From contig CM022675.1 of assembly GCA_012295275.1 (NCBI GenBank), positions 16,327,189 to 16,391,188 on the forward strand: 64,000 nucleotides of DNA, written 5' to 3'. Below the pieces are notes generated by a model. The model was not told the DNA's origin and ran no database searches. It saw only the letters and a list, made by a program, of their open reading frames with translations. Positions 4,751-56,549 of this stretch are shown here, in pieces. Within the stretch, counting starts at the first letter, position 1, and the number at the start of each line of letters is the position of its first letter. The translations under genes and the position numbers were made by a program. This stretch comes from Chrysomallon squamiferum. Its lineage: Eukaryota; Mollusca; Gastropoda; Neomphalida; Peltospiridae.

Positions 4751-7700
4751 GTGAGTTGAGTCTGTTTACAACTAATCTTCTCTTGTTTATATCTTTTTGT
4801 TCCTTCTGACAGAGTTTCTTGTTTTGTTTTGTTTTTCCTTCATTTCTTTGTTAGTTATGTTTTTGGCAGGGGGTTGTTTTGTATTTTTTGTTCTTTTTTT
4901 AAATGCTCCCATGAATTAAATGTTAACTGTCTGATACATTAAAATAAAATATTAATATATGTTAACTGACAGGTTAATTTGCAAATACCGGATGTTTATT
5001 AAATCAAATGAATTGACAAAGTATGTGGGTTAAAAAGATAATTTATTAATTTCATGTCTTAAAAATTATTATTTATGATCTTTTTATTTTTATTTTTTCT
5101 TTATTATTATAATTTTTATTTTTTCAGCTCATTTTAATTGTGATGCTGGTTGGGAGGTTTACAATGGAACGTGTTACCTCTTCAACGACTCTGATCTTAG
5201 CTGGGTGGACGCCCGGTCAGCCTGTCAGCAGAGTGGGGGAGATTTAGCAGAGATTCACACTCCACAGACACAGGCTTTCCTTAACGGTCAGATACTTTAC
5301 ACAAATACACAATAGTAACACAGACACAGGCTTTCCTTAACGGTCAGATACTTTACACAAATACACAATAGTAACACAGACACAGGCTTTCCTTAACGGT
5401 CAGATACTTTACACAAATACACAATAGTAACACAGACACAGGCTTTCCTTAACGGTCAGATACTTTACACAAATACACAATAGTAACACAGACACAGGCT
5501 TTCCTTAACGGTCAGATACTTTACACAAATACACAATAGTAACACAGACACAGGCTTTCCTTAACGGTCAGATACTTTACACAAATACTCAATAGTAACA
5601 CAAACACAGGCTTTCCTTAACGGTCAGATACTTTACACAAATACACAATAGTAACACAGACACAGGCTTTCCTTAACGGTCAGATACTTTACACAAATAC
5701 ACAATAGTAACACAGACACAGGCTTTCCTTAACGGTCAGATACTTTACACAAATACACAATAGTAACACAGACACAGGCTTTCCTTAACGGTCAGATACT
5801 TTACACAAATATACAACCAGTAACATAAACAAAGGCTTTCCTTTACAGACACATATTTTACACAAATACACAAGAGTAACACAAACCCAAGCCTAAAACA
5901 AGTGAAAATGTTTTAGAACACAGCATTCAACAAGTGAAGACTTAATATTTGATGATACTAACATTTTAACATGGGTATGTATTTCTGCTTAAATGTAGTG
6001 ACAGAAAATTGTGTTTTCAGGCAGAATTCAGGGTGGAGACTACTGGATTGGGTTAAATGACAGAGTTCAGGAAGGAAACTTTCGATGGCTTGATTCAAAC
6101 GAATCGGTAAACATATTATTACTTCAAATAAAATTTGATAAAAGTTAGATAATAAAATGTTATTTTTTTCTTTAATTTTTTTTCTGTTTATATGTTTGTT
6201 TTAAATTCGTATGTTCAGAACTTTGTGTTTGTATGTGTGTATAATTACGTATTTGTGGGGAGCTGTATGTATGTATAGCTGTATATATCTATATATGTGT
6301 CACCTTGTCTGTCTTTATTCTCAGTGTATTTATGTTTCTATAATTATATTAATGTATGTATTTATCCACATGTATGTATGTAATGTTTATCTGCTTGAAT
6401 ATGTATTCAAGCAGATAAACATTACATACATATAAATATAAATTTTTACATATTATTTGTTTCATACTAATAAATTATTTTATATAAACATATAACTTAA
6501 GTACTGAAAACAGTTCAGAAGTTTTAATCAGCTTAATTACAGAATATTTAATTATTTTCTTAAAGATATGTTTTAAATTCTGTGACTATTATACTTAACA
6601 GATTAGTAAATGTTATAATACTTGAGACTGAGTAGTAAAATGAAGAAAATATATTTTTATATGTTAGCAGTTTAAACAGTTTAACAATATTGTATTTATT
6701 TATTTTCTCTATGCAAGTTACATTAACTTAACTGATAAATATATTTTTATATTTAAGCCTGATTTTTTAAATAGCTGAATGATATTTTTTATGTTTTTTT
6801 GTGTGGAGAGTTATATTAACATAAAATATGCTTTTATATTTTGGTCTAAATATTTAAACATTAATTATTACTTTTGTTTTTGTGTGAGAGTTATAATAAC
6901 ATAAGAGATAATATATTTTAATGTTTCAGATAACGTATTTAAACTGGAACAAACGCGAGCCCAATAACATTAACAGTGAGAACTGTGTGGCGATTCTGGG
7001 GAAGTGGGGGCCCACTCAGAACGGCAAGTGGAATGATTACGCATGCGATCGAACATTTCGTTACATCTGCCAGAAAAATGCAAGTAAGTTCTCTTTGTTT
7101 GTTATTGTAAATGATTCACATAGATAATTAAACACAAAAACACTGTACTGAGTATATTTCTAAGTGATTATTTTGTCACACTGCCAAATTTTACAACTAA
7201 TAAAGTATAACTGTAAAATTAAAGAACTCATGAGAAATAAGGCAGAAATTCTTGAAAAACTAAGGATAAATCAAATACAAAAAGTTAAAACTTGATTTTA
7301 ATGTTTCTTGAAGCACTTCTTTGAAAATCTTAAAATTGTAAATTATTAAAATAAAATCTTAAAATGAAGATAAACTAACAAAATTATAAGAAGCAAAGTG
7401 CAGACATTATACTGAGCATTAAATGCATTTACTTTTTATATTTTTACTTTCTTCTAGGTAATGTTGGTGAGTTTGTGCATGTAGAAATGATTTAATTCAC
7501 AATCTGGGGTCATCCAGCACATTACATTTTAATTTTTAAAACCAAAGATTTCATTGACTGTTTCAGTACTTCTTTTTTTTTTTATTTGTTTCTTTCTTTG
7601 TTTCTTTAATTATTTTGCATGTTAAAGCTGCCTCCTATCATTTGTAGCAGTATGTCTAGAATAGTTTACTAAAAAATACATTACATTTTTTGAGAATGTT

Positions 7701-10700
7701 TCAGTATGTCTAATTAGAGAATATTTCTCATTATTTTCATTCTGTCTAAACTGTAAATCTGGCATGTGACTTATTTGTAATATTTCTGAAAATGTATATG
7801 ACTATATTAAATTATTTAAAACCGTTAATTTCAACAACAAAATTTGTATTTAATTAATATGTTGCAATAACCGATTATAGAATAAATATCTGTCTAGTCC
7901 TGAACAAGGGTTCAAAAAACTTTTAGTTGAACATCTACGGATGCTGGTTAGAGAAAATTCGTTATACATTGTTTATTTCACAGACATTTGTCATTTTATC
8001 CACTATATTTCATAACTTGAATTGTTGTATAGTTCAGTGGTTTCTGTATTTGATGTTGATTAGAATACATTTTTAGTATCTAGTGGGAGACATGTAGTGC
8101 ATGTTACAAAGAGTCCTTGATATAAAAATTAAAACATATTTACTTGACTACTAAAACAATTTTTTTATTTTATTTTATTTTATTATTATTGCCTGATAAT
8201 ATGATAAATGTATCTGACACTTCCATTATAGTTTAACTTAAAAGTAGTCATCAGTTTCAAAAGTAAGAAAATAACAGTTTAAAAGTTAAATTTAGCAGTA
8301 GCAGTTTTGTTGATGATATTGGCAATTTGTATTTCACACAGAAGTTAATGTTCAGTGCACTTTAACCAATGATGTGAAGACTCAGAAATGCAGGACCCAT
8401 ATGACAAGTTAATTTTGCTACCAGACTGATAAAATCCTGACACTGTATTAATGATAATTCTGTGTGTTTAATATGTGATGTATTTCACATTTCAGAAAAC
8501 AGTGGAGTGACACCTCAGACGACTACACCTACTCCACGTAAGTAGCTGACTTTGATTTCTAAAATAAACCATTACCCTTCTATACCATATAAACAACTGT
8601 TTTCAAAATCTTTTCAAAATGCCAGTCTCTGCTCAGTATTGGTACTTATTATAATAAATTAAATTCTCAGACGTTATAATTTGTGGGGAAATGTTTTATT
8701 TTTTTAAAGAATTAATAAATGATTGTGAAAAAAAAAAAAAAAATGAGTTTCCAAAAAAAAAAAAAAAAGCTTAGTGCACAATACAAAATAATTTATTTAT
8801 TTTAGAATAAAAATAATATAGATGTAGTGTTAACATGCTGATAAAGATATTTTTAAAAAGTAATTGAAAAAATTGTATTATGTTTGTCTTTTTGTATATG
8901 TGTGTTATTTGTATGTATGTATGTATGAGTCCATGTATGTATGTATGTAGGTAGGTATATATGAGTGTATGCAGGTATATATATGTGTGTGTGTTTGTGT
9001 GTGTGGTTATTGTAAACTGTTTAAAATGTTGGTGAATTATATTTTATTTTCACAGCCACATGGAGTGCAAAATGTGGTGCATTCTGGGAGGACAGTCCTC
9101 ATTCTGACTACTGTTACCAGTTTAATTCTAAACTTCTGACGTACATGGATGCTAAAGATGTGTGTCGACATCATGGTGGTTCACTGGCCAGCATCACGTC
9201 TCTACAAGAACAGTATTATATATCAGGTTCTTATATATTACCATATCACTTGTGTAATACACAGTGTGTTTGTCACATCTCTACAAGAACAGTATTATAT
9301 ATCAGGTTTTTATATATTAGTCATTTGTGTAATACACAGTGTGTTTGTCACTCTCTACAATAATACACAGGTTTGTGTTTGACATACACAGTGTGTTTGA
9401 CACGTCTCTACAAGAACAGTATTATATATCAGGTTTTATATATTATATCACTTGTGTAATATACAGTGTGTTTTGTCTCATAACAGTATTATATATCAGG
9501 TTTGTATAAGAACAGTATTATATATCAGGTTTGTATATATTACATATCACTTGTGTAATACACAGTGTGTTTGTCACGTCTCTACAATAACAGTATTATA
9601 TATCAGGTTTTTATATATTACATATCACTTGTATAATACACAATATTAACAGTAATTTAGTAATCTATATTACATATCAGGTTTTTATATATTTAATCCT
9701 TTCATATCAGTCAGCTGTGAAAATATATATATTTGTCACAGTTATCATTTATTATAGAAAATTACAATACAGATTTAGTCATCTATATTATATATCATGT
9801 TTTTACAAATAATCATTTCACATCATTCACTTGCATATTACATAGAAGTATTCTTTATACAGAAAATATTAAGAGAGGTTTTGAAATAATCTAGTTTACT
9901 TACTAAGTTTTTATAGTGGTTGTTAATCACTTTATGTGTAATATATACATTTATTACTAGTATCTTTAATATGGAAAATATCAGGAAGGTTTTGACACTC
10001 TATATTATATGCTAGGTAATTATTTTATGTCAGTCACTTTGTATAATAAACAGATTTATCACCAGTATTTTTAATATGCAAAATATTAAGAGGGTTTTGA
10101 TTGTGTTTTGAGGTCGACTGAAAGATGAAACTGTTACTGCTATGTGGATAGGAGCCAATGATAGGAGTCAGGAGGCAGGATGGAAGTGGGAAGATGGATC
10201 TCCTTTCTCTTTCTTTAACTGGGATGCTGGTTTGTATTATTGTTTTATAAATTTGAAATCAGTATGTTTTGGATTGCAAAATTATAAAATTCTGTCACAT
10301 TTAAATTTCTCAAGCCTGATTTTAATAATTTAGCTACTTCTTTCTGATTTCTCTTTTTTTTTTTTTTTTTTTTTTTTCATTATTTGAATAATAATAATTT
10401 CAGTAACATTCTATCACATTAAAACTATTCACAAGCTAGATAAAAAAAATGTAGTTCTCAAAGGTATGATTATTTGCCATTTTCTGTTATTATATACATT
10501 TTTTATTTTTTATTTTTATTTTTTTATTTATTTATTATATTTTTTCTAATAAAAATGTCAGTACCATGTTATCTGCTTCCAGGCCAAATCTAAGTAATCT
10601 AGTTTATTCATATGTATTTTTATCATAGATTTCATGATAATAATAAAATATGTTTATTTGCGAGAAGTGGAATATTTTTACATGTAAAAGATCTCTTACT

Positions 10701-13700
10701 GTTAATTGTACTACACCATGCAGTGACACAGCAGATTTCCTCTCTCAAATGACAAAAAACTTACATTTGATATCTAATAACCCAAAAGAAATGAGAAATG
10801 ACTGATCTTTGCAAATAAAATATCTTTGGTGTATTCAGTAAAAGAAAAATAGCCTGCAGTTGGCCTGTAGCTGGTTTCTTCTTTCAGATCATCATTAGGC
10901 AAAAGCTATAAAACAACTGTTAATAATAATGTGTTGATAAAAACTGGTTTATTTAGGAGAGCCGAATGACTTTGGACATGAAGAGGACTGTGCCAGTATT
11001 CTGGTGACCACTGCCTACTGGAATGATTACAACTGTGAGAGGAGAAATGGCTTCATCTGCAAAAAACTTGGTAGAGTTGCATTAAAATTACTTGTAGTAC
11101 ATTGCAATAAATTCTTTATTTTAATAAAATACTTACAGTTTTACAATCTACCATAGTGATGAACTTATTATCATCGTACTAGAATAATTACAGTACATGC
11201 AATAAACAAATTTTCAATCAACTAAAGCATTTTAATTAAAATACTGTTTCAGATTTCCTATCTGTCACGTAACTTCCATTAGCTAAACATTTTTTCAATG
11301 AATATAGGATTTTAATGTTGTCTGTGATACCAAAGTTTATTTTTCATAATGTGTACAATTTGAACATGATACTGTAAACTGTTATAAATAGTTAACTTTT
11401 AAAAATTGATTATTATAAATATCAAGTTATACATTCATTAATGATTTAAACCAACTTAGTTGATCCTAAATTAATTTATTTATCTAAATATTCAGTTATA
11501 TATTTCAATGATTTCTTTAAAAAAAATTACTGCAGTATATTAATCAGTTTGAACATTTACAAAATTAATTTATTAATAAAAATACCCAGCTTTTCTTCTC
11601 TTTTTTTTTCCAGTCAATATAGTTAATTTGCATGTTTTCCAAAAATGTATTTACTAAACCAGACAGCTTGTTATATATTTCAACTGTCTTTAAAAAGGTG
11701 AATAATAGGTTAAGCAGTCTATATATTTTCCTAAACTAGTTTATTGAACTAAAAAAATCTATTTGTAATATTCATCACTAAAGAAAAAAAAGGTGTAATG
11801 TATTAATCAATTTGTCTACACAGTTACAGAGCTTTTTTATTACATTTACTCAGTATGCAGCTATTGTGATAAGCAGCTGTTGAAAAACTGATTTCTCTAT
11901 TAATACAATAAAAATCTGTATTGCATGTGTTAATATTTTCAATATTTTATTTTACTCGTGTGCAGGTGAAACTACACAGACCACATCGACAGTGACATCA
12001 TCACCAATGACAGTGCCTGGTAAATAAAGTGAATGTAGTCATGTAGTGTAGATAATAGTGAATACTAATATTATAACATAGTGAGTAGTGAATTTGTGAT
12101 CTAGTGAAATAAAGTGAGCAGTAATTTAAAGATGTAGTGAAATGAATAATGGAATTGTGAAGTAGTGAATAAAGGAACAATAAGTAATGAGTTAAGGAAT
12201 AATAAAGTAACAAAAGAATAGTTAAGTAGCAAGTAAAAGAATGACGATGTGAGTAAAGAAATGATAAAGTAAAGATCAGAGGAATGATGAAGTACTGAGT
12301 AAAAAAATGATGAATAGTGAGTAGAGGAATAATGAAGTAGTGAGTTAAGGAATAATAAGTAGAGGAATGATAAAGTTGTGAGTAAATGAATAATAAATAG
12401 AGAGTTAAGGAATAATAAAGTAGTAAAAGAATGATGAAGTAGTGAGTAAAGAAATGATAAGGATCAGAGGAATGATGAAGTAGTGAGTAAAAGAATGATG
12501 AATGATGAGTAGAGGAATGATAATGCATAGTGAGGAGAGGAATAATAAAGTAGTCAGTTAAGGAATAATAAGCAGTGGAGAAATGATAAAATTGTGAGTT
12601 AAGGAATAATAAGTAGTGAGTAAAAGAATAGTAAGTAGTGAGTTAAGGAATAATAAAGTAGTGAGTTAAGGAATAATATGTAGTGAGTAGAGGAAAGATA
12701 AAGTAATATATAAAAGAATAAATGAGTAGAGGAATGATGAATTATTGTGTAAATGTATAATGAAGTAGTGAGTAGAGAATATGAAGTAGTGTGCAAAATA
12801 ACAATGAAGTACAGACTAACACAGACTTGTTGATCAACAGCTAAACATCATCTTTGTTCTTCAGTTTACAGTGTTACTTTTATTTCTCTTTTAACTTAAA
12901 CTTTTGAATGTTTTTTTCCATGGCCTTGCCATAAAATTATACTTTATACAACAGTCACAGTAATAATTATAGTAACAAATTAATAAATAAAATAAATAAA
13001 TGGTGATGAATGTATGAGGTGGATTGTAGGTGTTGTGTTGTTTTCAGCTGGATGGTCGTATGGTTGTGACTCTGGCTGGAGAGGATATCTCAATTCCTGT
13101 TTCCTCTTTGTTCGGAAGCCAGTCACTTGGCTCGCAGCTCGGTCAGCGTGTCGGGTGGAGGGGGGGGACCTTGCCAGCATCTACAGCAAAGAAGAAAACA
13201 ACTTTATTTTGAGTCAGCTACCAAAAAGTAAGAAACTACACATTTGTTTCATCTGCTCAAAACAGATACTGTATCATGCAGGTTTTTTTTTAACTTGATT
13301 TATTACTGTATACACACAGCAACCTCCTCATAGAATGTACTGTACAGAGATCTTGATTTCTTTTAGTAGAATTTTATTTAATCAGTAAAATTTCATTAAA
13401 TGTTTTAAATCAGAGAAAGAAATTCTAACAGAACTTTATTATCATCATAGAGGTTTTTTTTGCAAAAAACAAACACCAAAACCCTGACACAGATATTCAA
13501 AATAGTGAGTGTTCTCATACTTTCAGAACTGGGTCTATGTTAATATAGATTTTTAATGACTGTGGTCATAGATTTTATTCAGTTAACTAAATTTAATTAA
13601 ATATTTTAAAGAATTTTGTATATTTTCATCTTTTCGGTTCTTAGAGAATTTTACTATAATTATAAAATTTAAGTAAAATAAAATAAAAATAATCCCACCC

Positions 13701-16700
13701 AAAATACAGACAGATGAAAATGGTGATTTCTGTGTGTGTAATTTCAGAATCAAAACCTATCATATTAATAAAGATTACATTTTCTTCACATTGTGATACT
13801 GATATAGCCCATATATTGTGATCAATTTATAGACTCAGTCTTTAATGAATTTTTGTGACATTGGCCCACAGAGTCATGTAAGAATCTACATGGCAGCAGT
13901 GCGCAGTGTAAGAGTTGGGCTGACTCAGGTGAGTGTGAGAAAAACCCCGTCTGGATGAGTGTCAACTGTCGTCTGTCATGTCAGCTGTGTCATGTGGTGT
14001 GTCAGGACAAACACACCAGCAATGAGTGTGTTCTGTGGGCCAGTTTGGGCGAGTGTGACAAGAATCCAGTGTGGATGCACAAAAACTGTGCCAGGTCCTG
14101 CCAAGTGTGCGATGCTGGTGAGGAAAACATGTCTGTCAGCATGCATTCACACTGTGCATGCTCTGTGATTTTGTTGAGACGGTTGTGTTACGTTGTGTAG
14201 TCTCACACTTGGTTAGCAGCATGGTAACTTTGCATGGAGGTTTCATAGTTGATCTTCCCAAACATTAGCATTACTGTCTGTATGGAAAATGACAGCTGTG
14301 TGATGAGTTTATTTATTAGTGAATATTCTTGTATAGAATACAAATATTTGTGTTTTAATCACTGATGTAGTTCTGCCTGAAAACATGCCACATAAAGATG
14401 AATACCTACCTTTTAAAGTGTATATTTGATTCTAAAAAAATAGTACATTTCTTGTATATTTGTAAAATGTAAATAAAAATCCTTGATATATATGAAAATA
14501 CCAAAAAAGAGGTAATGTCACCCTGCAAACCCTTGTTATTTTATTGTCATACTTTATTATCAGCAAAGGCTTGTTGCATATAAAACTACAACAAAAAATA
14601 ACTTGGAGATATTCAAATTATGTCAATACAACCACAGACATACTTAATGTGAATTTTGAAAAAGATATAGAAATAACTTACCTGAAAGAACCACAAACAA
14701 CCTGCATGATTTGTTCACCATGTTCATACAACACATACATTTATTAACAGACATAATTATGTTAAATTTTTCTTAATTAATTACTTGGCACCTAACTGTA
14801 TTTGTTAATTCAGTATTAATAGTCAGAAATATTTAAATATATTAATCAGTATTAAAATATTCAAATTAGTTTGTGTTGTTAAAGTTAATATGACAGGAGA
14901 TGTTTATAAAGTAGTCTAATTTTGCTGTTTATAGCAATACTAAAGTATTCATGTTAACTCCAATACCTGATCTTTAGTCAGATTGTATTCACATTTAACT
15001 TCTGTTGGTTTTCCAGCTCTGAATTTGAGAATTATTTCAAATTATTGGTTTACTTAAAAAATAAAAATAATAGTTCATGTATGTTCATGAGTATTTTATA
15101 CTTATTTATTTATTGTAAGTATACACAATATACTTGGCCCATTTGTATCACAAAGGTACACTTAATAATAATAATAACTATAATAGTAATGATAACAACA
15201 ATGACAACAAAAATAACAACAATGACAGCAATAATAATAATAACAACATCAATAATATAATAATAATAACAGCAACAACAACAACAATAATATATTTTCA
15301 GGTAGCAATGATGCAGTGTGGCTTGGATTAAATGACAGAGAAATTTCAGATGAACTTTAGATGGACTGATGGGAGCAAAGTAGTCTATACAAACTGGGCT
15401 TTATCAGAACCCAACAACTATGGAGGCAAACATGAAGACTGTGTTTTGATGTTTTCATTTGTAAGTTACAACGTTTCCCATTCCAGCCAGTATCTGTTGC
15501 TTTTATGTCTGTGGTAAGGTTCATATAAAAGATTATTAACTGCTAAATGAAAAATATGTAGCACAAATAGGTATCCTGTTTAATTATCAATGTGATCTTT
15601 AACCATATGTATAATGCCACAAAATTAGATTTAAAATGTATAAATTAAATAAAACATTGCTTTCTTCAGTTTTTTTTTATAAATAGTGTAATGACAGTTA
15701 CAGTCTTTTTGTGCATCCAGTTATATTCCAGATTATTTATATTTATAGTTACTTCTGTAAATCTTTCAGAAATTGTGTTATGTAATGTCAAAATCATTCA
15801 TATACCGCATGTAAATAATTGGGACATTATCTGTAAATCTTTCAAAAATGTTCAGTATGTTAGTTCATAGATATTTACCTATAAGCTACTAGATAATGTA
15901 TTTAGTAAATAAGTTAACAGACATTTGTAAGTTATGAAGTATTGTCTATATATTATCTAAAATATTTTCTAAATTATGCTCTCTGAAAGATATTATATAT
16001 TAGTTAGACATCATACATAATTGGAAATTGTCTATAAGATATTGTCTGTCATATCAGATATTATCTATGTTATAAAGTATTATCACACATTGTCTGTACA
16101 ATATCAGACATTGTAAGTTACAAATGTTTTCTATAAGTTATCAAATTCTATTCAAAAGATGTCAAAAACTGTCTGAAATTTATCAAACATGGTTTTCTTG
16201 TTACTACATTTTGAAAATATTTAAAGAGAGTTGAGTAAAGAGACAGTTTTATCTCATTTCAGACAGGAACGTGGAATGACCACGTTTGTGACTTCCAGGC
16301 TCAGGGCTACGTGTGTAGACGACACAAACACATGTTGTCAACTACAGCACCGCCTGCATTTAGTGTTGGCTGTCCAAAGGTAATCAAAACTATTTACATA
16401 CAGTTTAACTTGTATTTGCTGTATACAGGTAATTTTCACTGCTCTTAATAAAGGCTAAAAGCAATTGTAGGCTGACAGAAATAATAGTAATAAATGAAAT
16501 ACAGATTTTTCTTTTTAATTTAATTTAATCCTTAAGTGTTGACAAGGAACCACTCTGGGAATTAGCATTATAAAAAGCATGAATTAAAAAGAAGACATGG
16601 ATATTGTGATGAGGCTGTGTACAAAAGGCTGAAATGTTTCAAACATGTGGCGTAATAATATACAGTATGTTGAAACATTTTAAATATAACTGTATACAGT

Positions 16701-18983
16701 ATGTTGAAACATTTTAAATATAACTGTATGCAGTATGTTGAGATATTTTAAATATAACTGTATGCAGTATGTTGAGATACTTTAAACATGGTGAAGCTGT
16801 ATTCTGTGTGATGAAATGTTGTGTAGCTATATACAACATATTGAAATATTTCAAACCTGTGGTGTAAGTGTATACAATATGTTGAGATGTTTGAAATAGA
16901 TGGTGTAACTTTATAATATGTTGAAATATTTCAAAGGTGGTACAGCTGTATAAAATATGTGAAATGTTTTAAATGTGGTCCAGCTGTATAAAATATGTAA
17001 AATGTTTTAAATGTGTACCACAGCTGTATACAATATGTGAAATGTTTTAAATGTGTAGTGCAGCTGTATAAAATATGTGAAATGTTTTAAATGTGTAGTG
17101 CAGCTGTATAAAATATGTGAAATGTTTTAAATGTGTAGTGCAGCTGTATAAAATATGTGAAATGTTTTAAATGTGTAGTGCAGCTGTATAAAATATGTGA
17201 AATGTTTTAAATGTGTAATGCAGCTGTATAAAATATGTGAAATGTTTTAAATGTGTAGTGCAGCTGTATAAAATATGTGAAATGTTTTAAATGTGTAGTG
17301 CAGCTGTATAAAATATGTGAAATGTTTTAAATGTGTAGTGCAGCTGTATAAAATATGTGAAATGTTTTAAATGTGTAGTGCAGCTGTATAAAATGTGTTG
17401 AAATATTTCAAACCTGTGGTGTATCTGTATACAGTGTGGTGAAATGATTTAAACAAACATGATGCATGAAACTAAGATGTATAAACTTTTATTTCAGAAT
17501 TCATTTGGCTACCAGTCCTGGTGTTACACGTTTAATACATCTCCACTTACCTGGACCACAGCTGAGTTGTTCTGTAAAACCAGACATGGCCACCTTGCCA
17601 CTGTTAATGACAGGTGTTTGATTACTGTGATTAACAATAAACCAAAATGTTACTTGTAATAAGTTACAGTTCAGAGAACGAGATGAATTTATTATTAAAT
17701 TTTGGATCAATATTTTTATACTGAGAATGTTTCATCAAATAAAATTTTAACTTTTAAGTACTCTTTTTTGTTTCTTTCCCCAAAGAGAAAAGTAAACCAA
17801 TTGGCCATTTTATACATATATTATTATAACTGTACTCTTTTAACTTTTAATTTAATCATCAGTTAAGACTGGATGTCACAAAACCCAAATCAAATATAAT
17901 TTTGAAACACTCAGCACAGATACATTTCATACATTTAATACATGATATGATATATATATATCATAATATAATGTAGAGAATAGTATACAGAAACTGTCTG
18001 ATTGTATGTAGTTTAGAATATAATATACACTGATATAGAAATATTCTGACTGTACACAGTTTAGAATAAAGTGTACAATGAAATATTCTGATTACAGATA
18101 CGTACAAGCATTCCTTGCTGCTGAATTGGTCAACAGAGATGATGTCTACTGGATTGGACTGACCGACAAGGCCACGCCTGGTCAGTACTGCTGGTCAAGC
18201 AATGCCAGTGTCACATACACACCATGGGGAAGATCTCACAATGGTGAGGTATATTTTTATATACCTGTCACTAGTCAGATACTGTTTTTATTAATCAACA
18301 AAATTGTAATCTTTCATTTAGTAAATGTTTTATATCAACAAAATTGTATTATCATTTAGTAAATGTTTTACATAAGATAAATTGTAATATGTTAAAATCA
18401 GTTCATTTAATGTAGATTACACAAATCTGTAGAAGCTGCTGTGTAAAAACTGAATAGCACCCACACACACAAACTCACAGGCAGACAGACAGACAGACAT
18501 AACAGTTATATCAAATTCTTATTTATCAGTTGATTGTGAATTGTAAGTCACTAAAAGAGACAAAAGAAATAAAGAAAAGAGATAATCTGGTGATCAGTTG
18601 AGAAATACATGAATTTTCACTGACAGGAAGTGAGAGAAATACCTGTGTTGCTATGGCAACTCTCCGCCCTGTTGGCCTGTGGCAGAATGTTGACTGCATG
18701 GCTCGAAAGCCTTTCATCTGTGAGAGACTGAGAGAGGGGTTCACAGCTCCCCCACTCACAACCCCCGCCCCCACCACAGCGTACGTCAGTTGTCCTGCAA
18801 ACTGGCATGCTTTCAATGACTACTGCTACAGGGTAAATTGTGCTGTTTATTTAATACTTTTGTGTCATTATGTTGCAGTTATTCTTTCACGTTTCTAAAA
18901 CTCAAATTTTAAACTTAAAATCTAAACTCTTGCAAAAGTAATTTAATAATAAATACTTGATACAATAATGTAATAAACAAATC

Positions 18984-19023
<40 letters not shown>

Positions 19024-19520
19024 TCTCAGCCTTGTGTCTCTTTGTGTCTCTTTGTTTCTTTGCCTCTTTCTTTTTCTCTCTATCTCACACAGACAAAGCA
19101 ATCTTACCAATATTACATTCTCCATATCATTTTAAAAAATACAACACATACATTTTCTTTTCACAACTACGCTGTTAACTGATGATGATGATGTTGATGA
19201 TCGTGTTTCAGCGAGAACAGAGGACTGTAACCACATCGCTGTCGTGGATTGAGGCACGTAGCTACTGTCGAGGATTTGGAGGTGATCTAGCTAGCATTCA
19301 TAATGAGGCAACCAACACATTCCTAATAAATACTGTGTTAGGGTGAGCAAACTTTGACCTGTCTCAGAACTGTTTTAATATTTAAATTATATAACAATGG
19401 CAAAACTGAATACTGTTTTGTGATATTTACATTACATGAAAATGTAACTTACATGAACATGGATATAAATATTTAATAGTTAAATTAATTGGAATAACAA
19501 AACAATTTTCATAACTGTTT

Positions 19521-19559
<39 letters not shown>

Positions 19560-21543
19560 GTATAATGAATAAAAGCAGGACTCCTGATTTTACTCAATGA
19601 CTAATTAATGCTGGGTACTGAAAAAAAAAAATTCAATTTGTGTTATGGCTGGTTTAATTTAATATTGAATAAAATAATTATATCAGGTTGTTAAATTTTT
19701 ATTTTAAAAATATTTAACTGTTGTTTGTATAACATATATAACAAACCATTGTTAACATCTTGAAATATATTTTCCTTATTTGTTTCTATATGTGTGTGTG
19801 TTTTTGTGTGTTTTTGTGTGTGTGTGTGTGTGTGTGGAGAGTGTGTACATGTGTTTTTCATTCTAAAAACAATAAATTGTTCTGCAGGTTTTCCCATCAT
19901 GGCAGTTTTTGGATAGGACTGAATGACCTGGACAGAGAAACCAGTAAGATTTCATTTAAAATTACAATCAGTGTTTTGTGATTGTCCATTTATAAATATC
20001 ACAGTATATTCACACTGTAATAACTACAATTTACAGATGTTTCATCATTTCATGATTGCAGGATTATTTTAAAATAGAAAATAACTGAAATCTTTTGTTT
20101 TCAAATATATATTTCAGGAAGAACTATCCATATTTTTTTTATCTTTCTTTATCTGTTTGTGTGTCTGCTGGTCTACTAGAGTTCTGTCCAGTTCAAATTT
20201 CAGGAATAAGTTTTTATCTTTCTGTGTCTCCTTTCTCTTGAATGATGACAACTAGGTGGACATATCTGTCTTTTTGTCAGTGTATGTGTCTGTCAGTGTA
20301 TAAATATCGATGTGTTTATTATCTATATTAAATCATTTGAAGAAATCCTCTGTGTTGAAGATTATCCATGGTTTGAATGAAAATATTTGTTTATAAAATT
20401 CTACAATTAAAAACCCACTCAACTACAAATGTTCATGCAATGTCTATATACATATGATATAACTGAGAATGAGATGAATAGTCAATTTCTGTACAGATGT
20501 TCCTGTATTAAAAGTGTGCTGTGTTGTAGGTTACAAACATTCCTGTATTAAAAGTGTCCTGTGTTGTAGGTTACAAACATTCCTGTATTAAAAGTGTGCT
20601 GTGTTGTAGGTTACAAACATTCCTGTATTAAAAGTGTGCTGTGTTGTAGGTTACAAACGTTCCTGTATTAAAAGTGTGCTGTGTTCTAGGTTACAAACAT
20701 TCCTGTATTAAACATGTGCTGTGTTGTAGGATACAAACATTCCTGTATTAAAAGTGTGCTGTGTTGTAGGATACAAACATTCCTGTATTAAACATGTGCT
20801 GTGTTGTAGGTTACAAATGTTCCTGTATTAAAAGTGTGCTGTGTTGTAGGTTACAAACATTCCTGTATTAAAAGTGTGCTGTGTTGTAGGTTACAAACAT
20901 TCCTGTATTAAAAGTGTGCTGTGTTGTAGGATACAAACATTCCTGTATTAAACATGTGCTGTGTTGTAGGTTACAAATGTTCCTGTATTAAAAGTGTCCT
21001 GTGTTGTAGGTTACAAACATTCCTGTATTAAAAGTGTGCTGTGTTGTAGGTTACAAACATTCCTGTATTAAAAGTGTGCTGTGTTGTAGGTTACAAACAT
21101 TCCTGTATTAAAAGTGTGCTGTGTTGTAGGTTACAAACATTCCTGTATTAAAAGTGTGCTGTGTTGTAGGTTACAAACATTCCTGTATTAAAAGTGTGCT
21201 GTGTTGTAAATTACAGATGTTCCTGTATTAAAAGTGTGCTGTGTTGTAGGTTACTCACATTCCTGTATTAAAAGTGTGCTGTGTTGTAGGTTACAAACAT
21301 TCCTGTATTAAAAGTGTGCTGTGTTGTAGGTTACAGATGGTCTGATGGAACACCATTTATGTATGCTAAATGGTACAATGGAGAGCCAAACGACTTCAAC
21401 AACAACGAGGACTGCGTTGTGATAAACAAAATGACAGGAAGGTGGAATGATGAGAACTGTTTTGTTGCCAAAAGTTTTGTTTGTCAAATACGCAGAGGTT
21501 GTTCTTTTATTACAGTTTACTTTTACTTAACTAACCCATTGGT

Positions 21544-21614
<71 letters not shown>

Positions 21615-24600
21615 TTTTATGTCTCTGTGTATGTATTTATAGGAAACAAAGGAAAAGAATGAATCCTTTAAAAAATAATTTAATTACTGCTAAAAGAATC
21701 TATTAAATTTGTATCTAAGAATCACACTATTATTGTTACTGTTGAATGTATGTTAACACTGTAGCATGTACAAACTCTGTTATGTTCTGACAAGTTGTTT
21801 TAATTATACAAGACTTTTTATTGACAGGGATGGCAATTCCATCAGTAACACCAAAACCAACAGTACCATACAGTAAGTTTTTACTAATCGGTTTTGCTAA
21901 CACTTCATTGTAACATCTGTGTATAAAATACATCCACTAAGTTTCAAATCTGTTTAAACAAAATGTACCTATTAATTATTAATCTATTTAAATTAAATAT
22001 ATCCATAAATTTACTAATCTATTAATTATTATAATGTAAAAACAGATCCAGTACATTTCTGATTTATTTAAATAAATACAAATCACATTATCAAATGACA
22101 TTTATTTAACATTTAACATATATACTATAAAACTGTCATATACTATCACAATATCATAATATGTGAATGCTTTCAAGTACTATTCTAGTCTGTCTACATT
22201 GATCTAGTGTTTATGTTTTAGTGTGTCCACATTGATCTAGTGTGTATGTTTTAATGTGTCTGCATTGATCTAGTGTGTATGTTTTAGTGTGTCTGCATTG
22301 ATCTAGTGTGTGTTTTAGTGTGTCAGCATTGATCTAGTGTGTATGTTTTAATGTGTCTGCATTGATCTAGTGTGTATGTTTTAGTGTGTCCACATTGATC
22401 TAGTGTGTATGTTTTAATGTGTCTGCATTGATCTAGTGTGTATGTTTTAGTCTGTCCACATTGATCTAGTGTGTATGTTTTAATGTGTCTGCATTGATCT
22501 AGTGTGTATGTTTTAATGTGTCTGCATTGATCTAGTCTGTATGTTTTAATGTGTCTGCATTGATCTAGTGTGTATGTTTTAATGTGTCTGCACTGATCTA
22601 GTGTGTATGTTTTAATGTGTCTGCACTGATCTAGTGTGTATGTTTTAATGTGTCTGCACTGATCTAGTGTGTGTGTTTTAATGTGTCTGCACTGATCTAG
22701 TGTGTATGTTTTAATGTGTCTGCACTGATCTAGTGTGTGTGTAAGTGTCTATGTTTTAGAGTGTCCACATTGATCTAGTGTGTGATGATGTTTTAGTGTG
22801 TATGTTACAGTGTGTGATGATGTTTTAGTGTGTATGTTATAGTGTGTGATGATGTTTTAGTGTGTATGTTACAGTGTGTGATGATGTTTTAGTGTGTATG
22901 TTACAGTGTGTGATGATGTTTTAGTGTGTATGTTACAGTGTGTGATGATGTTTTAGTGTGTATGTTACAGTGTGTGATGATGTTTTAGTGTGTATGTTAT
23001 AGTGTGTGATGATGTTTTAGTGTGTATGTTATAGTGTGTGATGATGTTTTAGTGTGTATGTTACAGTGTGTGATGATGTTTTAGTGTGTATGTTACAGTG
23101 TGTGATGATGTTTTAGTGTGTATGTTACAGTGTGTGATGATGTTGATGTTCAGTGTTCTGATAAGGACTGGGTGTACTATGGAGGTTACTGTTACAAAGT
23201 GTGTATGTGTATGTTTTAGTGTGTATGTTATAGTGTGTGATGATGTTTTAGTGTGTATGTTACAGTGTGTGATGATGTTTTAGTGTGTATGTTACAGTGT
23301 GTGATGATGTTTTAGTGTGTATGTTACAGTGTGTGATGATGTTTCAGTTCAGTGTTCTGATAAGGACTGGGTGTACTATGGAGGTTACTGTTACAAAGTG
23401 TCAGCAAGTCGTATGTGTATGTTTTAGTGTGTATGTTATAGTGTGTGATGATGTTTTAGTGTGTATGTTACAGTGTGTGATGATGTTTTAGTGTGTATGT
23501 TATAGTGTGTGATGATGTTTTTAGTGTGTATGTTATAGTGTGTGATGATGTTTTAGTGTGTATGTTATAGTGTGTGATGATGTTTTAGTGTGTATGTTAT
23601 AGTGTGTGATGATGTTTTAGTGTGTATGTTATAGTGTGTGATGATGTTTTAGTGTGTATGTCTTAGTGTGATGATGTTTCAGTTCAGTGTTCTGATAAGG
23701 ACTGGGTGTACTATGGAGGTTACTGTTACAAAGTGTCAGCAAGTCGTATGTGTATGTTTTAGTGTGTATGTTATAGTGTGTGATGATGTTTTAGTGTGTA
23801 TGTTACAGTGTGTGATGATGTTTTAGTGTGTATGTTATAGTGTGTGATGATGTTTTAGTGTGTATGTTATAGTGTGTGATGATGTTTTAGTGTGTATGTT
23901 ATAGTGTGTGATGATGTTTTAGTGTGTATGTTATAGAGTGTGATGATGTTTTAGTGTGTATGTTATAGTGTGTGATGATGTTTTAGTGTGTATGTTACAG
24001 TGTGTGATGATGTTTTAGTGTGTATGTCTTAGTGTGATGATGTTTCAGTTCAGTGTTCTGATAAGGACTGGGTGTACTATGGAGGTTACTGTTACTATGT
24101 CAGCAAGTCGTATGTTTTAGTGTGTATGTTATAGTGTGTGATGATGTTTCAGTTCAGTGTTCTGACAAGGACTGGGTGTACTATGGAGGTTACTGTTACT
24201 ATGTCAGCAAGTCGTATGTGTATGTTTTAGTGTGTATGTTATAGTGTGTGATGATGTTTTAGTGTGTATGTTATAGTGTGTGATGATGTTTCAGTTCAGT
24301 GTTCTGACAAGGACTGGGTGTACTATGGAGGTTACTGTTACTATGTCAGCAAGTCGTATGGTTCTGGGGTGAAGAGAACCTGGTTCAGTGCCAGACAATT
24401 CTGTATGGCAGCAGGTGGAGACCTCCTCAGCATCCACACCAGAAATGAGCACAACTACATCATTGGTCTGGTAATTTATATACCTGCTTTGTTGCTGTGC
24501 ATTTACATTACTCATCTAATGTACCATACAGTAACTTATACTACTACATCGCTGTTTTATTATCAATAGTATACATCTGTCTGAATAGCTGTGCTAGGTG

Positions 24601-24807
24601 GTGTATGAATATGTGCATCACTGGACTGGTACTGGTAACTGTAAAATGTACAACTGTGTCATTCTTATGGTAGCAGTAACTACACACAACTGTGTTGTCA
24701 CTTGTAGTAACCTTTAAAAACATATCACAGGAATAAATAAACATAAGAACCTAAAATTGTAAATTAATTTCTCCAATCTTTAATCAGTGTTTAAAAAGGA
24801 ATTTTAC

Positions 24808-24844
<37 letters not shown>

Positions 24845-27800
24845 TTTTTTATTAAATAGTTTTCACCTAGCTAGTTAATGTTTTCTATGTTTAGTGCTGG
24901 CTATGTATGGTTGCTAATAGCAACACTGTATGTTTTCACAGATCACCAAGTCACCCACCACCATGTTCTGGATTGGTCTGAATGAGCTCAGTATGAACAG
25001 TTACAGGTAAATCAAGTATTATGTTACACATTAGTCAGGTGTTACAATTACAGGTAAATCAAGTATATGTTATACATTAGTCATGTGTTACAATTACAGG
25101 TAAATCAAGTATTATGTTATACATTAGTCATGTGTTACAATTACAGGTAAATCAAGTATTATGTTGCACATTACTCAGGTGTTACAGTTACATGTAAATC
25201 AAGTATTATGTTACACATTAGTCAGGTGTTACAGGTAAATTATGTATTATGTTACACATTAGCCAGATGTTACAATTACAGGTAAATCAAGTTTTATGTT
25301 ACACATTAGTCATATGTTACAGGTAAATTAAGTGTAAGTTACAAATTAGTCAGGTGTTACAATTACAAGTTACTCATGTTATTGTTATAGGTTAATCAAG
25401 AGTACCTCTATCGATATATAATATAAATTTGTTCAGGTGGTCTGATGTAACAAGTTTTTCACTACATAATGTAAATATATCTTACTTTACTATACAGTAC
25501 TGATATATACTATAAATATATCTTACTTTACAATACAATACTGATATATACTGTAAATATATCTTACTTTACAATACAATACTGATATATACATAAATAT
25601 ATCTTACTTTACTATACAGTACTGAAATATACATAAATATATCTTACTTTACTATACAGTACTGAAATATACATAAATATATCTTACTTTACTATACAGT
25701 ACTGAAATATACATAAATATATCTTACTTTACTATACAATACTGATATACAATAAATATATCTTACTTTACTATACAATGCTGATATAGACTGTAAATAT
25801 ATCTTACTATACTATGCAATACTGATATATACTGTAAATATATCTTACTTTACTAGACAATACTAATATACAATAAATATATCTTACTTTACTATACAAT
25901 ACTGATATAGACTAACTATATCTTATTTTACTATACAATACTGATATATACTATAAATATTTGTTACTTTACTATACAATACTGATATATACTGTAAATA
26001 CATCTTACTTTACTATACAATACTGATATAGACTGTAACTATATCTTATTTTACTATACAATACTGATATATACTATAAATATTTGTTACTTTACTATAC
26101 AATACTGATATATACTGTAAATACATCTTACTTTACTATACAATACTGATATAGACTGTAAATATATCTAACTTTACTATACAATACTGATATATTGTAA
26201 ATATATCTTAATTTACTATACAATACTGATATATACATAAATATATCTTACTTTACTATACAATACTATATATATATACTATAAACATATCTTACTTTAC
26301 TTTACTGATATAACTTTGTTGTTGAGGTGGTCTGATGGAAGTCCTGACAATTACTATGCCTGGAACAAGAACGAGCCAAACGATGCGTACGGTGGTCAGA
26401 AATGTGTGAATATGTATCACGACAGTGGTGAGATGTGTTTTATTATTTCACGTCTCTCACTTAATAAATAAACTAGATTTATTAGTTAAGAAAATGTTTT
26501 TATATTTTTAATAATTTTCTTTATTTTCTATATTTATATATTTTGTTAATATATTAAGGAAGATATTACTTTGAAATCCAAACGTTTATATATATGTGTG
26601 ACTGTGTGTGTGTGTCTCTGTATGATAAAAAAATATTATTTCAGACATTATTTTTAACATACTAACAAGACGAAAGAGTACAGGAAATGAATTTTATTTT
26701 GTTCAAAGCATTTTTACAAACTTACTTTACGTCTTCAGGATGATATCCTCAAATGTGAAAATAATATAAGAAAATTAAATTATGCCTTTCTCTTTTCTTT
26801 TCTTTTTTTCTTCTTAATTTTATTTTTTTTAATTTTTTTTTTTTTTAAAACAGGTCTGTGGAATGATGACAACTGCATGGACATAAATGGTTTTATCTGT
26901 AAGAAAACAAACGTAACATCAACTCCAAAGATTCCTGTTCCAACACCAATAACAAATGGAGGCTGTTCTTTTGGTTCTGGAGTTCCTCAGAGTAGGTTGA
27001 CATCTGACCAAATAAATTTAAATTTAGACATATATAAAAAGTTTTACATAAACAGATTAATGAAAGCAAAAACCAACAGAAATCTTTACTAACTGAACAT
27101 GATTTTAGCTATTACATTTACTGATTATTGATAATCTTTTTCATAAACTGATAATTTAATGTTCCAAATATGCATAGTTATGAAACAGAGTAGATAAACC
27201 TTTGGTTGTGTTATACAAATTGTAGTATGTGAGTTTAATATATGTGAAAATTTCTGTAAGAATTTGAAGTTTTGTGAATTTATCTCACATGTGAGTTATA
27301 ACCTTAATTAAATATAATTAAATATGATGGAAAAATGCTTGCTTTAATTTGAAAACAAAACTTGCAAAAAGAAAAAAGGAAACATAAATTCAAGTAGATA
27401 ATTAACTTTTACAACTTGCTTAGCTAAAGTTGTTAATTACATGTATTCACAATGTTATTCAGTAGTAACTTGTAACATAAAGTCTTACTTAATTAAATAT
27501 GAATAACAGTCAAACTGAAGAGAATCATTTGGGTACTATGCATCCTGGATGTTACCCACACATAGTAGGAAAATTGTTTTCGAACTCATTTCAGGGAGAT
27601 TAAATGTTTATTCATTACCATTGTCTCAGTAGTAGGTAGATTGTTTTCTGTGTATTTCAGGTAATAAATGTTTATTCATTGTTGGACTCAATGAAAGTAG
27701 CTGGAGATCTTGGGAAGCTACCAGGAACAGGGTGAGATAACTATGACAAACAGTCAGACATTGCCTCCATTAGCAGCTACCAGGAACAGGGTGAGATAAC

Positions 27801-29777
27801 ATATGACAAACATACAATACGTTGTTAGTGTACCAGGAACAGAGTGAGATAAAATATGACAAACATACAATATATTGTTAGTTTACCAGGAACAGAGTGA
27901 GATAAAATATGACAAACATACAATACATTGTTAGTTTACCAGGAACAGGGTGACACCATATATTACAAACATACAATGTGTTGTTAATTTACCAGGAACA
28001 GGGTGACATGACATATTACAAACATACAATGTGTTGTTAATTTACCAGGAACAAGGTGACATGATATATTTCAAACATACAATGTGTTGTTAATTTACCA
28101 GGAACAAGGTGAGATAATTTGTTAAAACATTAAAATATTGTAAATTTAGAAGGAAGAAGGTGAGATGATTTGTTAAAACATTAAAATATTGTAAATTTAG
28201 AAGGAACAAGGTGAAATCATTTAATAAAAAAGAAATAATAGTAAATAAACAGATGTAATTTAACTTGTGTATATTTGTACTGGAGAGAAGTGGTATTAGT
28301 TTACCATATTATATCAGTGTTAATTTACTAAATGATCAGTGATGTGACTGATGCGGCTGTGTTTGTTATTTCAGCTTTTCTAACAAGTTTAAGCAGGGAC
28401 GTTGGAACACCACTGTGGATTGGTCTAAATGCACTGAACACTGGATATGGCCATCGCTACTTTGTGTGGCAGGACAATTCTGAAGTTTCATTCACTAACT
28501 GGGACAAAGGGGAACCCAACAACTTATTCGGCTATGAAGCAGTAATTATTTTATAATACAGTCTGAGGATCCTTTATCTGAAATTATAAAAACTTCAAAT
28601 CTGGAACATGTTTCAAGCAGCTAAAATAGTTATATTTATCAGATGGCTTAGCCTTCACAAATTTTATTTCATGCATAAAATTTTGAAAATACAAAAAAAA
28701 TGACCTCCAGACTATCTGTATTAGCTGTATATGAAATCAGTGGATATTGTGTTACTTCAATTCTTTCTACAGACTGTCATATCCTTATATTTAATAATCC
28801 AAAACAGTGACATTTCATCCATCAAACAGACACACATATACCTTCATACATACAAAACATTTATTTTTGACTTGTTTCACATATATATACCAATAAATAA
28901 AATATTTTTTCATTTTTTTTTTAATATTTTTGTATATTTATTTATGATTATGTCTCTTTTAAAATTTGAAAAATAGTAACAGGATAGATTTTTTTGTAAA
29001 AAGATTCTGAATGAATAAATAAATTTTATATGACAAATTCTTAACTTGCTCAGTAAACGAAATCTGGACACTTTCTTATTTTTATTTATTTTCTCAGGTA
29101 TTTAGTATTTATTTTTGACTTGTTTCAGACGTGTAAATATTTGTGTATTTCACTGAAAGAAATTCTGATCTCTGTTTGGTGATTTCAGTCCCAGTGTGTG
29201 GAGATGTACACCAGACAAGACAGAGCAGGTCTGGAACATTCAGAACTAAACATACCTAAATATGTGGGTCAGACATTCAGAGGGAACATATGTGTGTCAG
29301 ACTTTCAGAGGTAAACATACCTAAATGTGTGTCAGACTTTCAGAGGTAAACATACCTAAAATGTGTGTCAGACTTTCAGAGGTAAACATACCTAAAATGT
29401 GTGTCAGACATTCAGAGGTAAACATACCTAAATATGTGTGTCAGACTTTCAGAGGTAAACATACCTAAATGTGTGTCAGACTTTCAGAGGTAAACATACC
29501 TAAATATATGTGTGTCAGAGTAAACATACCTAAATGTGTGTGTCAGACTTTCAGAGGTAAACATACCTAAACATATGTGTGTCAGAGTAAACATATCTAA
29601 ATATGTGTGTCAGACATTCAGAGGTAAACATATTTAATTCAGATATTTGCACCCTTTTCCACTTCAGCCAGTATCCTGGAGCTAATTACAAAAGGTTGTG
29701 ATTAATTTTGCTGTCTTTTAGTGATTATAGGTAAAACATTCCTAGTACATATATAGCTCTTGAAGCAGAGAGAATAT

Positions 29778-29820
<43 letters not shown>

Positions 29821-32800
29821 CTGACATACAATACAATGTATTAAGATATCATTAAACATTAATTTATTCATTCAGTCATACAACTAGAAAACAAGACAGT
29901 GTGATAGATCATGTGCAAAAATTATTAAGAAATTTATAAATTTTTATTCTCTGTCTTTCAACTGACACTTTGTTTATAATTCTCATGTTTTGTTTACTTT
30001 TTTAGAAATATTATTTTATTTATTTAACAAAATACAGCTACTGTTACATATTCTTAAAATAATATCTAGTATATTATACATGTTGATTTATGTCTCTTTG
30101 TTTCAGTTGTGAACTGTTGTACATGTATATAAAACACATAGTAGAAACATGGTCTGTAAATCTAACAATTTCTTCTTTTTTTTTAACTTAAATAAAAGGA
30201 CCAAATTTATTTCTTTAGAATGGTGTTTGATGTTTATTGTTGTGTTGTTGTTGTTGTTGTTTTTATTATTTCCTTTTCTTTTGTAAAGTTTCAAATAGGG
30301 GATGAAAAGAACAGCATTCTATATAAAATTTAACTTGTTTAGAATACCATTATGATGTTTAAATCAAATGTAATTCACCTACTAGAATAATCTTTTTTGT
30401 TCTTTTTTTTTTTTTTTTTTTTTTCAGGTACCAGTTATAATGTTTATTTATATCTTGTAAATTATTTACTCATGAAAATTCAGTTTTTGTTTTTTCCAAT
30501 ATATACTGTGTGTGATATGTAGAAAATTGGTAATTTGTTTCCTGACATAAATGTTGTGACTGGCTTTTTCAGACACCTCAATTCCAACACCAACTCCTGT
30601 ATCAACCAGTTGTAAGTCTGGTTACCACCAATACGGCTCCAGCTGCTATAGACTTTTTGTGGAGAGAAAGACGTGGCTTGATGCAGAGAAAGCATGTGAG
30701 AATGATTCTGGACATCTTGTGTCAGTAAACAGTGTGTATGAACAGTCACACATCGACATCATGCTCTACACCGTCAAAATCAACAACTCTCCTGTCTGGA
30801 TTGGACTGTCAGATTCAAAGGTAAGTGTCTGAATATACTTACATCTGTTGTCACTATTGGACTGTCAGATTCAAAGGTAAGTGTCTGAATATACTTACAT
30901 CTGCTGTCACTATTGGACTGTCAGATTCAAAGGTAAGTGTCCGAATATACTTACATCTGCTGTCACTATTGGACTGTCAGATTCAAAGGTAAGTGTCTGG
31001 ATATACTTACATCTGCTGTCACTATTGGACTGTCAGATTCATTCCAGTGGCAGTGTCTGAATATACTTACATTTAATGTCACTACTGGACTGTTGAACTG
31101 TACCTTTTGTAATATTTAAAAAATAATCTAATAACAACTACAAAGTATGTTCTGAATTTACTTTAAGGGGTTATTTTTTAAAACCAAATTACAGTTATCT
31201 TTAGGATAATATTTTAAAATTTCATCTTTCCAATTTAGATTTCCAGTTTTATTTATTTAAAGAAAAATATGTTAATATTTGGTATAAAATTCATAAACTG
31301 TCCACCCCCATTTTTTTTCTCTTCATTTTCACATTTGTTATTTTATTTAATTTCTGTTTGTGTGTGAGATATCAGTGTAATTATTTGTGTTTTGACAGGT
31401 GAAAGGAATGTATGCTTGGTCAGACAGCTGGCCAGTATGGTTCACTAGATGGGGTCAGGATGAACCTACCCGAGGGGAAGGAGATGGGTGTGTCACTGAA
31501 CAGGCACACAAGTGGAATGACACATCATGTTCCTCACAGTATCCATTCATTTGTGAGATTAACTCAGGTGAACAACTTTTCACAACTGCCATATCAGTTA
31601 AACTTTATTATAAATGTATAAACTATAGTTGAAGTTTGTTAATTTTATTATAAACTTCATTGTTACAGATCCTTTCAGTAGTACTTTCTTACAAATAATG
31701 TATATATGTTAACCTTTACTATAAAGGATGTTTGAGTATTACATATCAAGTAAGATTCAATTATTGGATTTGAAATGAACATTTTAAACTGTGTTATAAT
31801 GACTTTAGCCATTTATTTCTGTTAGTTAAATCTATGGTAAAGATTTTAGATTTCATATTACACCATATTTTCTGGTCAAACTTAACTTTGCAGAGTTCAC
31901 TTCTTACCAGTACTAATGATTTAGTTACATTTAAACTGTTATAGAAAACTGAAGTAAGTTATCATCAAAGTTAGGTTTGTTTGTTTCTGAATTGTTACTC
32001 AAATGTTGTTTGTCAATCAGAAAATCCTCCGAAGACGACACCTGCACCTGCAGGCTACTGTCAGAACAACGAGTGGCAGGTGTTTGGAGATTTCTGTTAC
32101 CAGGCGTTCCCAGACGACAGCAGGTCCTGGCCTGAGGCTCGTTACCTGTGTAGACATATCGGCATGGACCTCGTCAGCATCCACAGCCAGAAAGAACTGG
32201 ACTTTGTGTTCAACCTTGTTGAACAAGCAACTGCAACATCCAGATATGGATTCATTTTTCAAAAACGTAACATCTGGCTTGGACTGACAAACACATTAAG
32301 AGGTATCTGAAAGAGTTGTGTATATTTTTGTTTTAGAAAATATTTCTTAAATTATAAACCAGGCTGGTTCAAACTGATTGACTTGATAGATCACTTGATC
32401 AATTCTTCTTAGTGCATTCATTGGACATTTTCCCATTCAAGCTTGTGTCTCACAGTTGTCTTATCAAAGGCTGTGACGTGTGCTTTCTTGTCTGTGGAAT
32501 ACACATCTATTATTACAATATTTATTTAACAGTTTATATTAATCTGACAGTTGTTGTTGACTGTCACAATAAATAAATAAAAAATAAATAAAAAATAAAT
32601 GAATAAATGAATATCTTCCATATAAATTTTTTGAGAGACTGTTTAAGAAATGTTTTTATTTTTTGTTCTCTCTGTGTAGCTGGGTTTGAGTGGAGTGATG
32701 GTTCACCAACCAATTTCCTTCGCTGGTCAAGAGGAGAACCTTCAGATGTCAGCCACACAAACAATGAAGAGTGTGTGGAGATGTACCGGTCAAGTGGTCA

Positions 32801-40557: not shown

Positions 40558-40900
40558 TACTTCTTGACAATAACAGACAATAACAGAAAACTGAGACATG
40601 GAGTTTATTACTTCTTGACAATAACAGAAAACTGAGACATGGAGTTCATTACTTCTTGACAATAACAGAAAACTGAGACATGGAATTTATTACTTCTTGA
40701 CAATAACAGAAAACTGAGACATGGAGTTTATTACTTCTTGACAATAAGAAAACTGAGACATGGAGTTTATTACTTCTTGACAATAACAGAAAACTGAGAA
40801 ATGGAGTTTATTACTTCTTGACAATAACAGAAAACTGAGACATGGAGTTTATTACTTGTCTATAACAGAAAAAAAACTGAGACTTGAAGTTTATTAGTAC
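40558..40900 (+). repeat. 41-bp minisatellite
   Basis: About eight units with ATTACTTCTTGACAATAACA and gaaaactgagacatggagttt, directly beyond the transposon candidate. The last units are degenerate. Confidence 0.93.
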
Positions 40901-40984
40901 TTGACAGAAACAGAAATTGTTTAATATAAACTTCATTAAAATAAATATCTGGAATGAAGTTTTAACTTTATCCACTTGGTTATT

Positions 40985-52140: not shown

Positions 52141-52181
52141 TAAATTACAGAACATCTTCTGACTATAAAGGAAACACTTCA

Positions 52182-55517: not shown

Positions 55518-55550
<33 letters not shown>

Positions 55551-56517: not shown

Positions 56518-56549
<32 letters not shown>

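Follow-up and report, generated by a model that had tools for sequence, protein, structure and literature searches.

Minisatellites spanning exon borders in a macrophage-mannose-receptor-like gene of the gastropod Chrysomallon squamiferum

Are the borders between exons and introns favoured as birthplaces of minisatellites, or are they simply hit from time to time by duplications arising in short introns? This question is raised by a C-type lectin gene lying in a 64,000-nucleotide stretch of the genome of Chrysomallon squamiferum (Mollusca; Gastropoda; GenBank assembly GCA_012295275.1, contig CM022675.1, forward-strand positions 16,327,189 to 16,391,188), which we refer to as the window. An initial annotation of this DNA had pointed to at least seven introns in which a tandem array begins at an exon edge, with a unit that includes either the exon end and its donor (after exons 4, 8, 24, 27, and 30) or the acceptor and the exon start (before exons 21 and 23). 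We recovered all seven by Tandem Repeats Finder (TRF) and anchored matching, and found an eighth at the donor of exon 29 that had been overlooked. Among the 15 minisatellites of the gene, eight therefore carry an exon edge and its splice site inside the tandem unit, at six donors and two acceptors. They are probably minisatellites of the kind described in amphioxus as mirages, generated by tandem duplications that straddled exon borders in short, repeat-prone introns.

The gene was delineated with an exon model of our own, which places 35 exons in the window within one long shared reading frame, every exon border being AG/GT. C-type lectin and ShK domains were matched in all three scanned pieces of the translation, and when the first 387 residues were compared with PDB sequences, the top matches were the yolk sac IgY receptor, lymphocyte antigen 75, the phospholipase A2 receptor, and mannose receptors. 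Among the best 120 of 346 proteins, the closest came from Haliotis and Patella, where they are named macrophage mannose receptor 1-like, and from Lottia (one protein). Using one Haliotis and one Patella protein as tblastn queries, 25 of the 35 exons were matched in rows of at least 38% identity; exons 1, 7, 11, 15, 20, 22, 24, 27, 29, and 34, which are mostly short, had no match at this level. Judging from these similarities, this is a mollusc macrophage-mannose-receptor-1-like gene. GC content is 27-33% (in 4-kb steps), and the introns of the gene are short after repeat removal (17456 bases across 34 introns). Exon 13 (13872-14117) has 246 bases, a multiple of three, and encodes two ShK domains midway through the fourth lectin domain; it is covered by the Patella homologue P0003. 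The reading frame is interrupted in exons 14, 27, and 29. The interruption in exon 14 (15302-15460) is an apparent one-base frame shift beside a short A run, corresponding to a sequencing error or a true break.

TRF returned 108 rows for the whole window. At a score of at least 100, these form 14 clusters inside the gene, and separating the two arrays of intron 22 (33 bp and 32 bp) gives the 15 minisatellites, with TRF periods of 32-96 bp (Table 1). Two limits were set by hand: where the exon 27 array starts and where the exon 23 array ends. The locations given in the initial annotation were sound, and two of its periods were revised: the exon 8 array is compound, and the period of the exon 27 array is 53 bp. 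Homology also puts the end of exon 27 at the second copy of its array (27790). We also scanned all 68 junctions against their own introns, using the junctions of other introns as controls. Nine exceeded every control, namely the eight spanning borders and the acceptor of exon 25, of which one decayed copy is found (18/24 matches, against a control maximum of 16).

Table 1. Coordinates in the window of the lectin gene, its 15 minisatellites, and one decayed border copy
Feature	Position	Strand	Remarks	Basis
Macrophage-mannose-receptor-1-like gene	3615..33864	+	5' end lies outside the model	Exon model, C-type lectin/ShK domains, homologues, tblastn
56-bp array, 11 copies	5263..5883	+	Spans exon 4 donor (5286/5287)	TRF, anchored matching, junction scan
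2-copy 87-bp repeat	6737..6904	+	Intron 5, 25 bp before acceptor, non-spanning	TRF
Compound array, copies spaced 29-127 bp	9206..9615	+	Spans exon 8 donor (9226/9227)	TRF, anchored matching, junction scan
Degenerate ~23/45-bp array	12160..12811	+	Intron 11, 140 bp from donor, non-spanning	TRF
34-bp array	16659..16786	+	Intron 15, non-spanning	TRF
40-bp array	16817..17453	+	Intron 15, 44 bp before acceptor, non-spanning	TRF
2.4-copy 38-bp repeat	18294..18388	+	Intron 17, 50 bp after donor, non-spanning	TRF
40-bp array, 21 copies	20500..21335	+	Ends on exon 21 acceptor (21329/21330)	TRF, anchored matching, junction scan
33-bp array	22191..22742	+	Intron 22, non-spanning	TRF
32-bp array with interspersed copies of exon 23 acceptor/exon start	22777..24365	+	Real exon 23 acceptor at 24294/24295	TRF, anchored matching, junction scan
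47-bp array	24997..25367	+	Spans exon 24 donor (25006/25007)	TRF, anchored matching, junction scan
Single decayed copy of exon 25 acceptor region	25425..25448	+	Upstream of the 41-bp intronic array	Junction scan
41-bp intronic array	25472..26305	+	Ends 21 bp before exon 25, counted as non-spanning	TRF
53-bp array	27719..28229	+	At exon 27 donor; first copy within coding part; homologous exon end 27790	TRF, anchored matching, junction scan, homologues
36-bp array	29240..29632	+	At exon 29 donor; first copies where homologues are coding	TRF, anchored matching, junction scan, homologues
56-bp array	30800..31093	+	Spans exon 30 donor (30820/30821)	TRF, anchored matching, junction scan

Because the introns are short and the units measure 32-96 bp, a random unit often crosses a border, and 1.8-3.7 spanning arrays are expected by chance. 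The earlier argument that random slippage would not keep hitting exon borders was thus too strong, although an excess does exist. When seeds were allowed anywhere in introns, 2.32 spanning arrays were expected against the 8 of 15 observed (P=0.0007), and 3.67 when each seed was confined to its own intron (P=0.012). A Monte Carlo test with arrays collapsed to one unit gave an expectation of 1.8-3.6 (P 0.00004-0.011) and, without the exon 29 array, 7 spanning arrays of 14 (P 0.002-0.023). Overall, eight spanning arrays correspond to P 0.00004-0.022, depending on the null and the threshold.

Two of these eight depend on curation. The exon 27 array is counted through a homology-based exon end, which we shifted from 27731 to 27790 because the homologues place it there, and the exon 23 array through one junction-touching TRF row that scores 141 and is dropped at cut-offs of 150 and above. 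In the initial count, from TRF only and with exon 27 ending at 27731, seven clusters spanned a junction at score 50 (of 29) and at 100 (of 14), and six did so at 150 (of 14) and at 200 (of 13). Mechanical TRF clusters, taken at several cut-offs and with both exon 27 ends, gave 6-8 spanning arrays of 13-29 (P 0.0009-0.063). Omitting subsets from the seed model gave P 0.001 to 0.094, the highest value being reached with exons 23 and 29 out (6/13, P=0.094). A Fisher combination of edge-distance P-values was not significant (p=0.41), these values being coarse because a spanning array cannot score under its own span probability. Four of the seven non-spanning arrays have an edge at most 50 bp from a junction, which the null allows too. 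All P values come from a single locus chosen for its odd appearance and are uncorrected for that choice. We consider that the junction excess is real but moderate, and that a preference for junctions is suggestive but unproven.

If this excess were causal, arrays would be started by a mutational process biased toward junctions, such as transcription- or splicing-linked breaks, R-loops, or RNA-templated repair. Beyond the count itself (8 of 15), such a process would fit the involvement of both donor and acceptor sides, the greater homogeneity of donor arrays where they adjoin the exon, and an array density that is higher inside the gene, with 15 in 30 kb, than over the remaining 34 kb of the window, with 4 (binomial p=0.009). 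It would also fit the excess of G over C on the coding strand in seven of the eight junction arrays (skew 0.03 to 0.76; -0.35 in the exon 4 array). This skew, however, is equally strong in three of the four non-spanning arrays measured (0.38 to 0.87; -0.52 in the fourth), and is therefore not special to junctions; it does not discriminate for or against R-loops, which are neither supported nor excluded. Moreover, the excess is modest and, when the counts are reduced or loosened, weakens to P 0.02-0.09; 7 of the 15 arrays cross no border. Because so many arrays miss the junctions and the gene is richer in them than the rest of the window, the locus appears repeat-prone in general. We view a junction-biased origin as rather unlikely.

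The initial annotation also raised selection for duplicated splice sites in an immune-type receptor; such sites might be kept, for instance, as decoys or as a source of isoform variety. In line with this idea, anchored matching showed that most copies retain GT or AG, and in six of seven arrays mismatches are fewer in the splice window than in the remainder of the unit. In none of the seven, however, is the window significantly better conserved, a fraction of 0.09-0.80 of circular windows doing equally well or better. Use of the next donor copy would shift the frame at donors 4, 8, 24, and 30 and add stops at 4, 24, and 30, and all seven acceptor copies tried (three at exon 21 and four at exon 23) have stops in the required frame. 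The next-copy test says little at exons 27 and 29 because both are already broken. Given that splice windows are not significantly better conserved than the remainder of the unit and that, at intact exons, the next copy shifts the frame or introduces stops, selection for duplicated sites is very improbable.

Do the arrays derive from one another? Among 28 unit-versus-unit comparisons, a single pair (introns 29 and 30) scored above all 200 shuffles. At least five of the 28 pairs (the five lowest) had a shuffle fraction of 0.035 or less, which on our reading is attributable to the shared donor consensus. The units thus look largely unrelated, suggesting that the events were largely independent; with this proviso, the independence proposed earlier from differing periods and units is upheld. 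An introner-type family shared between introns was also considered and rejected, no long shared sequence being found among the 28 unit pairs. The exon-derived part of each unit matches protein sequence that other molluscs conserve; the exon therefore predates the arrays, which were seeded at its border.

The copies of the donor arrays are graded. Divergence grows with distance from the exon in all six (rho 0.58-0.95), with single p-values of 0.009 to 0.33, two of them below 0.05. Among three non-spanning arrays compared, divergence affects both ends of one, the last copy of another, and neither end of the third. The gradient and conservation tests were run without the exon 23 array, and the following copies were also set aside: the one at the real border, those at 9320 and 9499 in the exon 8 array, the last one of exon 24 (25390), and the first two of exon 29.

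Of special interest is the eighth lectin domain (exons 26-29; 26854-29310), which is broken in exons 27 and 29. Bases 27716-27752 of exon 27 match the array unit (37 bases, one gap) at a site where the Haliotis, Patella, and Lottia proteins have a cysteine-bearing stretch. Likewise, array copies in exon 29 occupy the position of the WND..C segment of these same proteins. Among 27 homologues above the score cut, 19 have the upstream cysteine motif and 26 the downstream W.[DN]..C motif; as these counts include alignments to other lectin domains, we rely on the three proteins that were read. In this one domain, coding sequence appears to have given way to array units. From the exon phases, skipping exons 27-29 would preserve the frame.

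This damage may reflect either the spread of units into a weakly constrained domain or an assembly error. Errors of assembly might indeed be invoked for the arrays themselves, or for the lesions of exons 14, 27, and 29, given that the apparent shift in exon 14 lies by an A run and that two array-bearing exons are broken. On the other hand, the copies bear distinct variants in order, which would be hard to produce by assembly alone, and no break is seen in the exons of six of the eight arrays. We hold such an artefact to be improbable.

The anatomy of the arrays, their largely unrelated units, the donor gradient, the frame consequences, and the moderate junction excess are the grounds on which we favour border-straddling duplication. 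As we infer it, short introns would be prone to tandem duplication, and some of the duplicated 30-100 bp segments would straddle an exon/intron border. Such duplications would be tolerated, as one intact splice site remains directly at the exon border and the extra copies become intron; only the border copy would be spliced, and the others would be nearly neutral. Arrays would later expand or contract by slippage or unequal exchange, and those at donors, which look youngest beside the exon, would decay toward the intron interior. Units may occasionally be copied into the exon, an event presumably purged in constrained domains and visible in the broken eighth one.

Several points weigh against this explanation. 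Tolerance alone predicts about 2-4 spanning arrays, against the eight seen, and a mild junction bias in array birth or survival may be needed to make up the difference. The exon 21 array, the one acceptor array examined, shows no gradient (rho 0.05). Finally, the donor gradients use 3-10 copies each and a consensus built from those very copies; since such a consensus favours the majority, the gradient is suggestive. A bolder extension would make exon borders favoured sites of minisatellite birth across animals, beyond amphioxus, with donor arrays renewing themselves outward from the exon edge, pushing units into the exon, and thereby eroding exons and removing domains in repetitive receptor genes. 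This we consider doubtful.

Outside the lectin gene, two further minisatellites (41 and 73 bp) are found at 40576-41203, where no gene model could be used; usable models are likewise lacking for the four minisatellites counted above outside the gene. A MITE-like (miniature inverted-repeat transposable element-like) sequence at 59132-60089 has terminal inverted arms of 27 nt at 93% and 68 nt at 84%. A 108-nt direct repeat (54791-54898 and 56990-57097, 98% identical) sits in a plus-strand gene at ~52170-57590 whose ShK-like exons were read by eye.

How do these arrays compare with known systems? Introns can be gained by tandem duplication of AG/GT segments (PMC4974935, PMC2891723; model discussed in PMC3087553), and here too the duplicated segment includes splice signals. 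Unlike the cases described in the available parts of those papers, introns recurring at similar lectin-domain positions (read by eye) have been enlarged, and nothing marks any of them as new. Intron 24 is the only one with copies of both of its own borders, and these come from different segments; old copies elsewhere could have decayed. In human segmental duplications, tandem repeats alter gene structure, some of them at exon-intron borders (PMC2812944), a likeness to the minisatellites seen here. As far as the accessible text of that report goes, those are recent paralogues with transcript evidence, whereas ours is a single locus known from DNA. Related but different, from what could be consulted of each source, are a minisatellite near alternative exons in C. 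elegans (PMC4039745) and, in the intron of an abalone gene, a minisatellite that is polymorphic (PMC6905558). Intronic minisatellites are also described in an earthworm metallothionein gene, with nothing on borders in the portion available (PMC12783039).

The closest parallel is offered by the amphioxus mirages, so that the phenomenon itself is not new. According to the available parts of two papers (PMC3087553, PMC3902484), mirages are tandem repeats across exon/intron borders in Adh3, globin, troponin C, and PGBD5, with units of 10-160 bp at 5' or 3' borders and AG/GT in many copies, though not in all; splicing is reported to be regular, and the repeats are known for length and somatic instability. 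The lectin-gene arrays share the inclusion of exon edge and splice site in the unit, the involvement of donors as well as acceptors, periods within the reported range, and AG/GT in many copies. This makes them a further case of the known kind, in another phylum. We found no report of mirages in molluscs in the open-licence literature, among the matches listed, and eight arrays in one mollusc gene suggest that they are more widespread than amphioxus. This single sequence, from which alone they are known here, offers many cases together with adjacent non-spanning arrays as controls. Whether splice borders are favoured as minisatellite birthplaces, and how the spliceosome chooses among up to 21 consecutive near-identical splice sites, thereby become questions testable in any long-read genome. 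Compared with the mirages as described in those sources, the gene adds a mollusc host, a gathering of eight arrays plus one decayed copy, a divergence of donor arrays that grows away from the exon, and the presence of unit copies within two exons of a broken domain.

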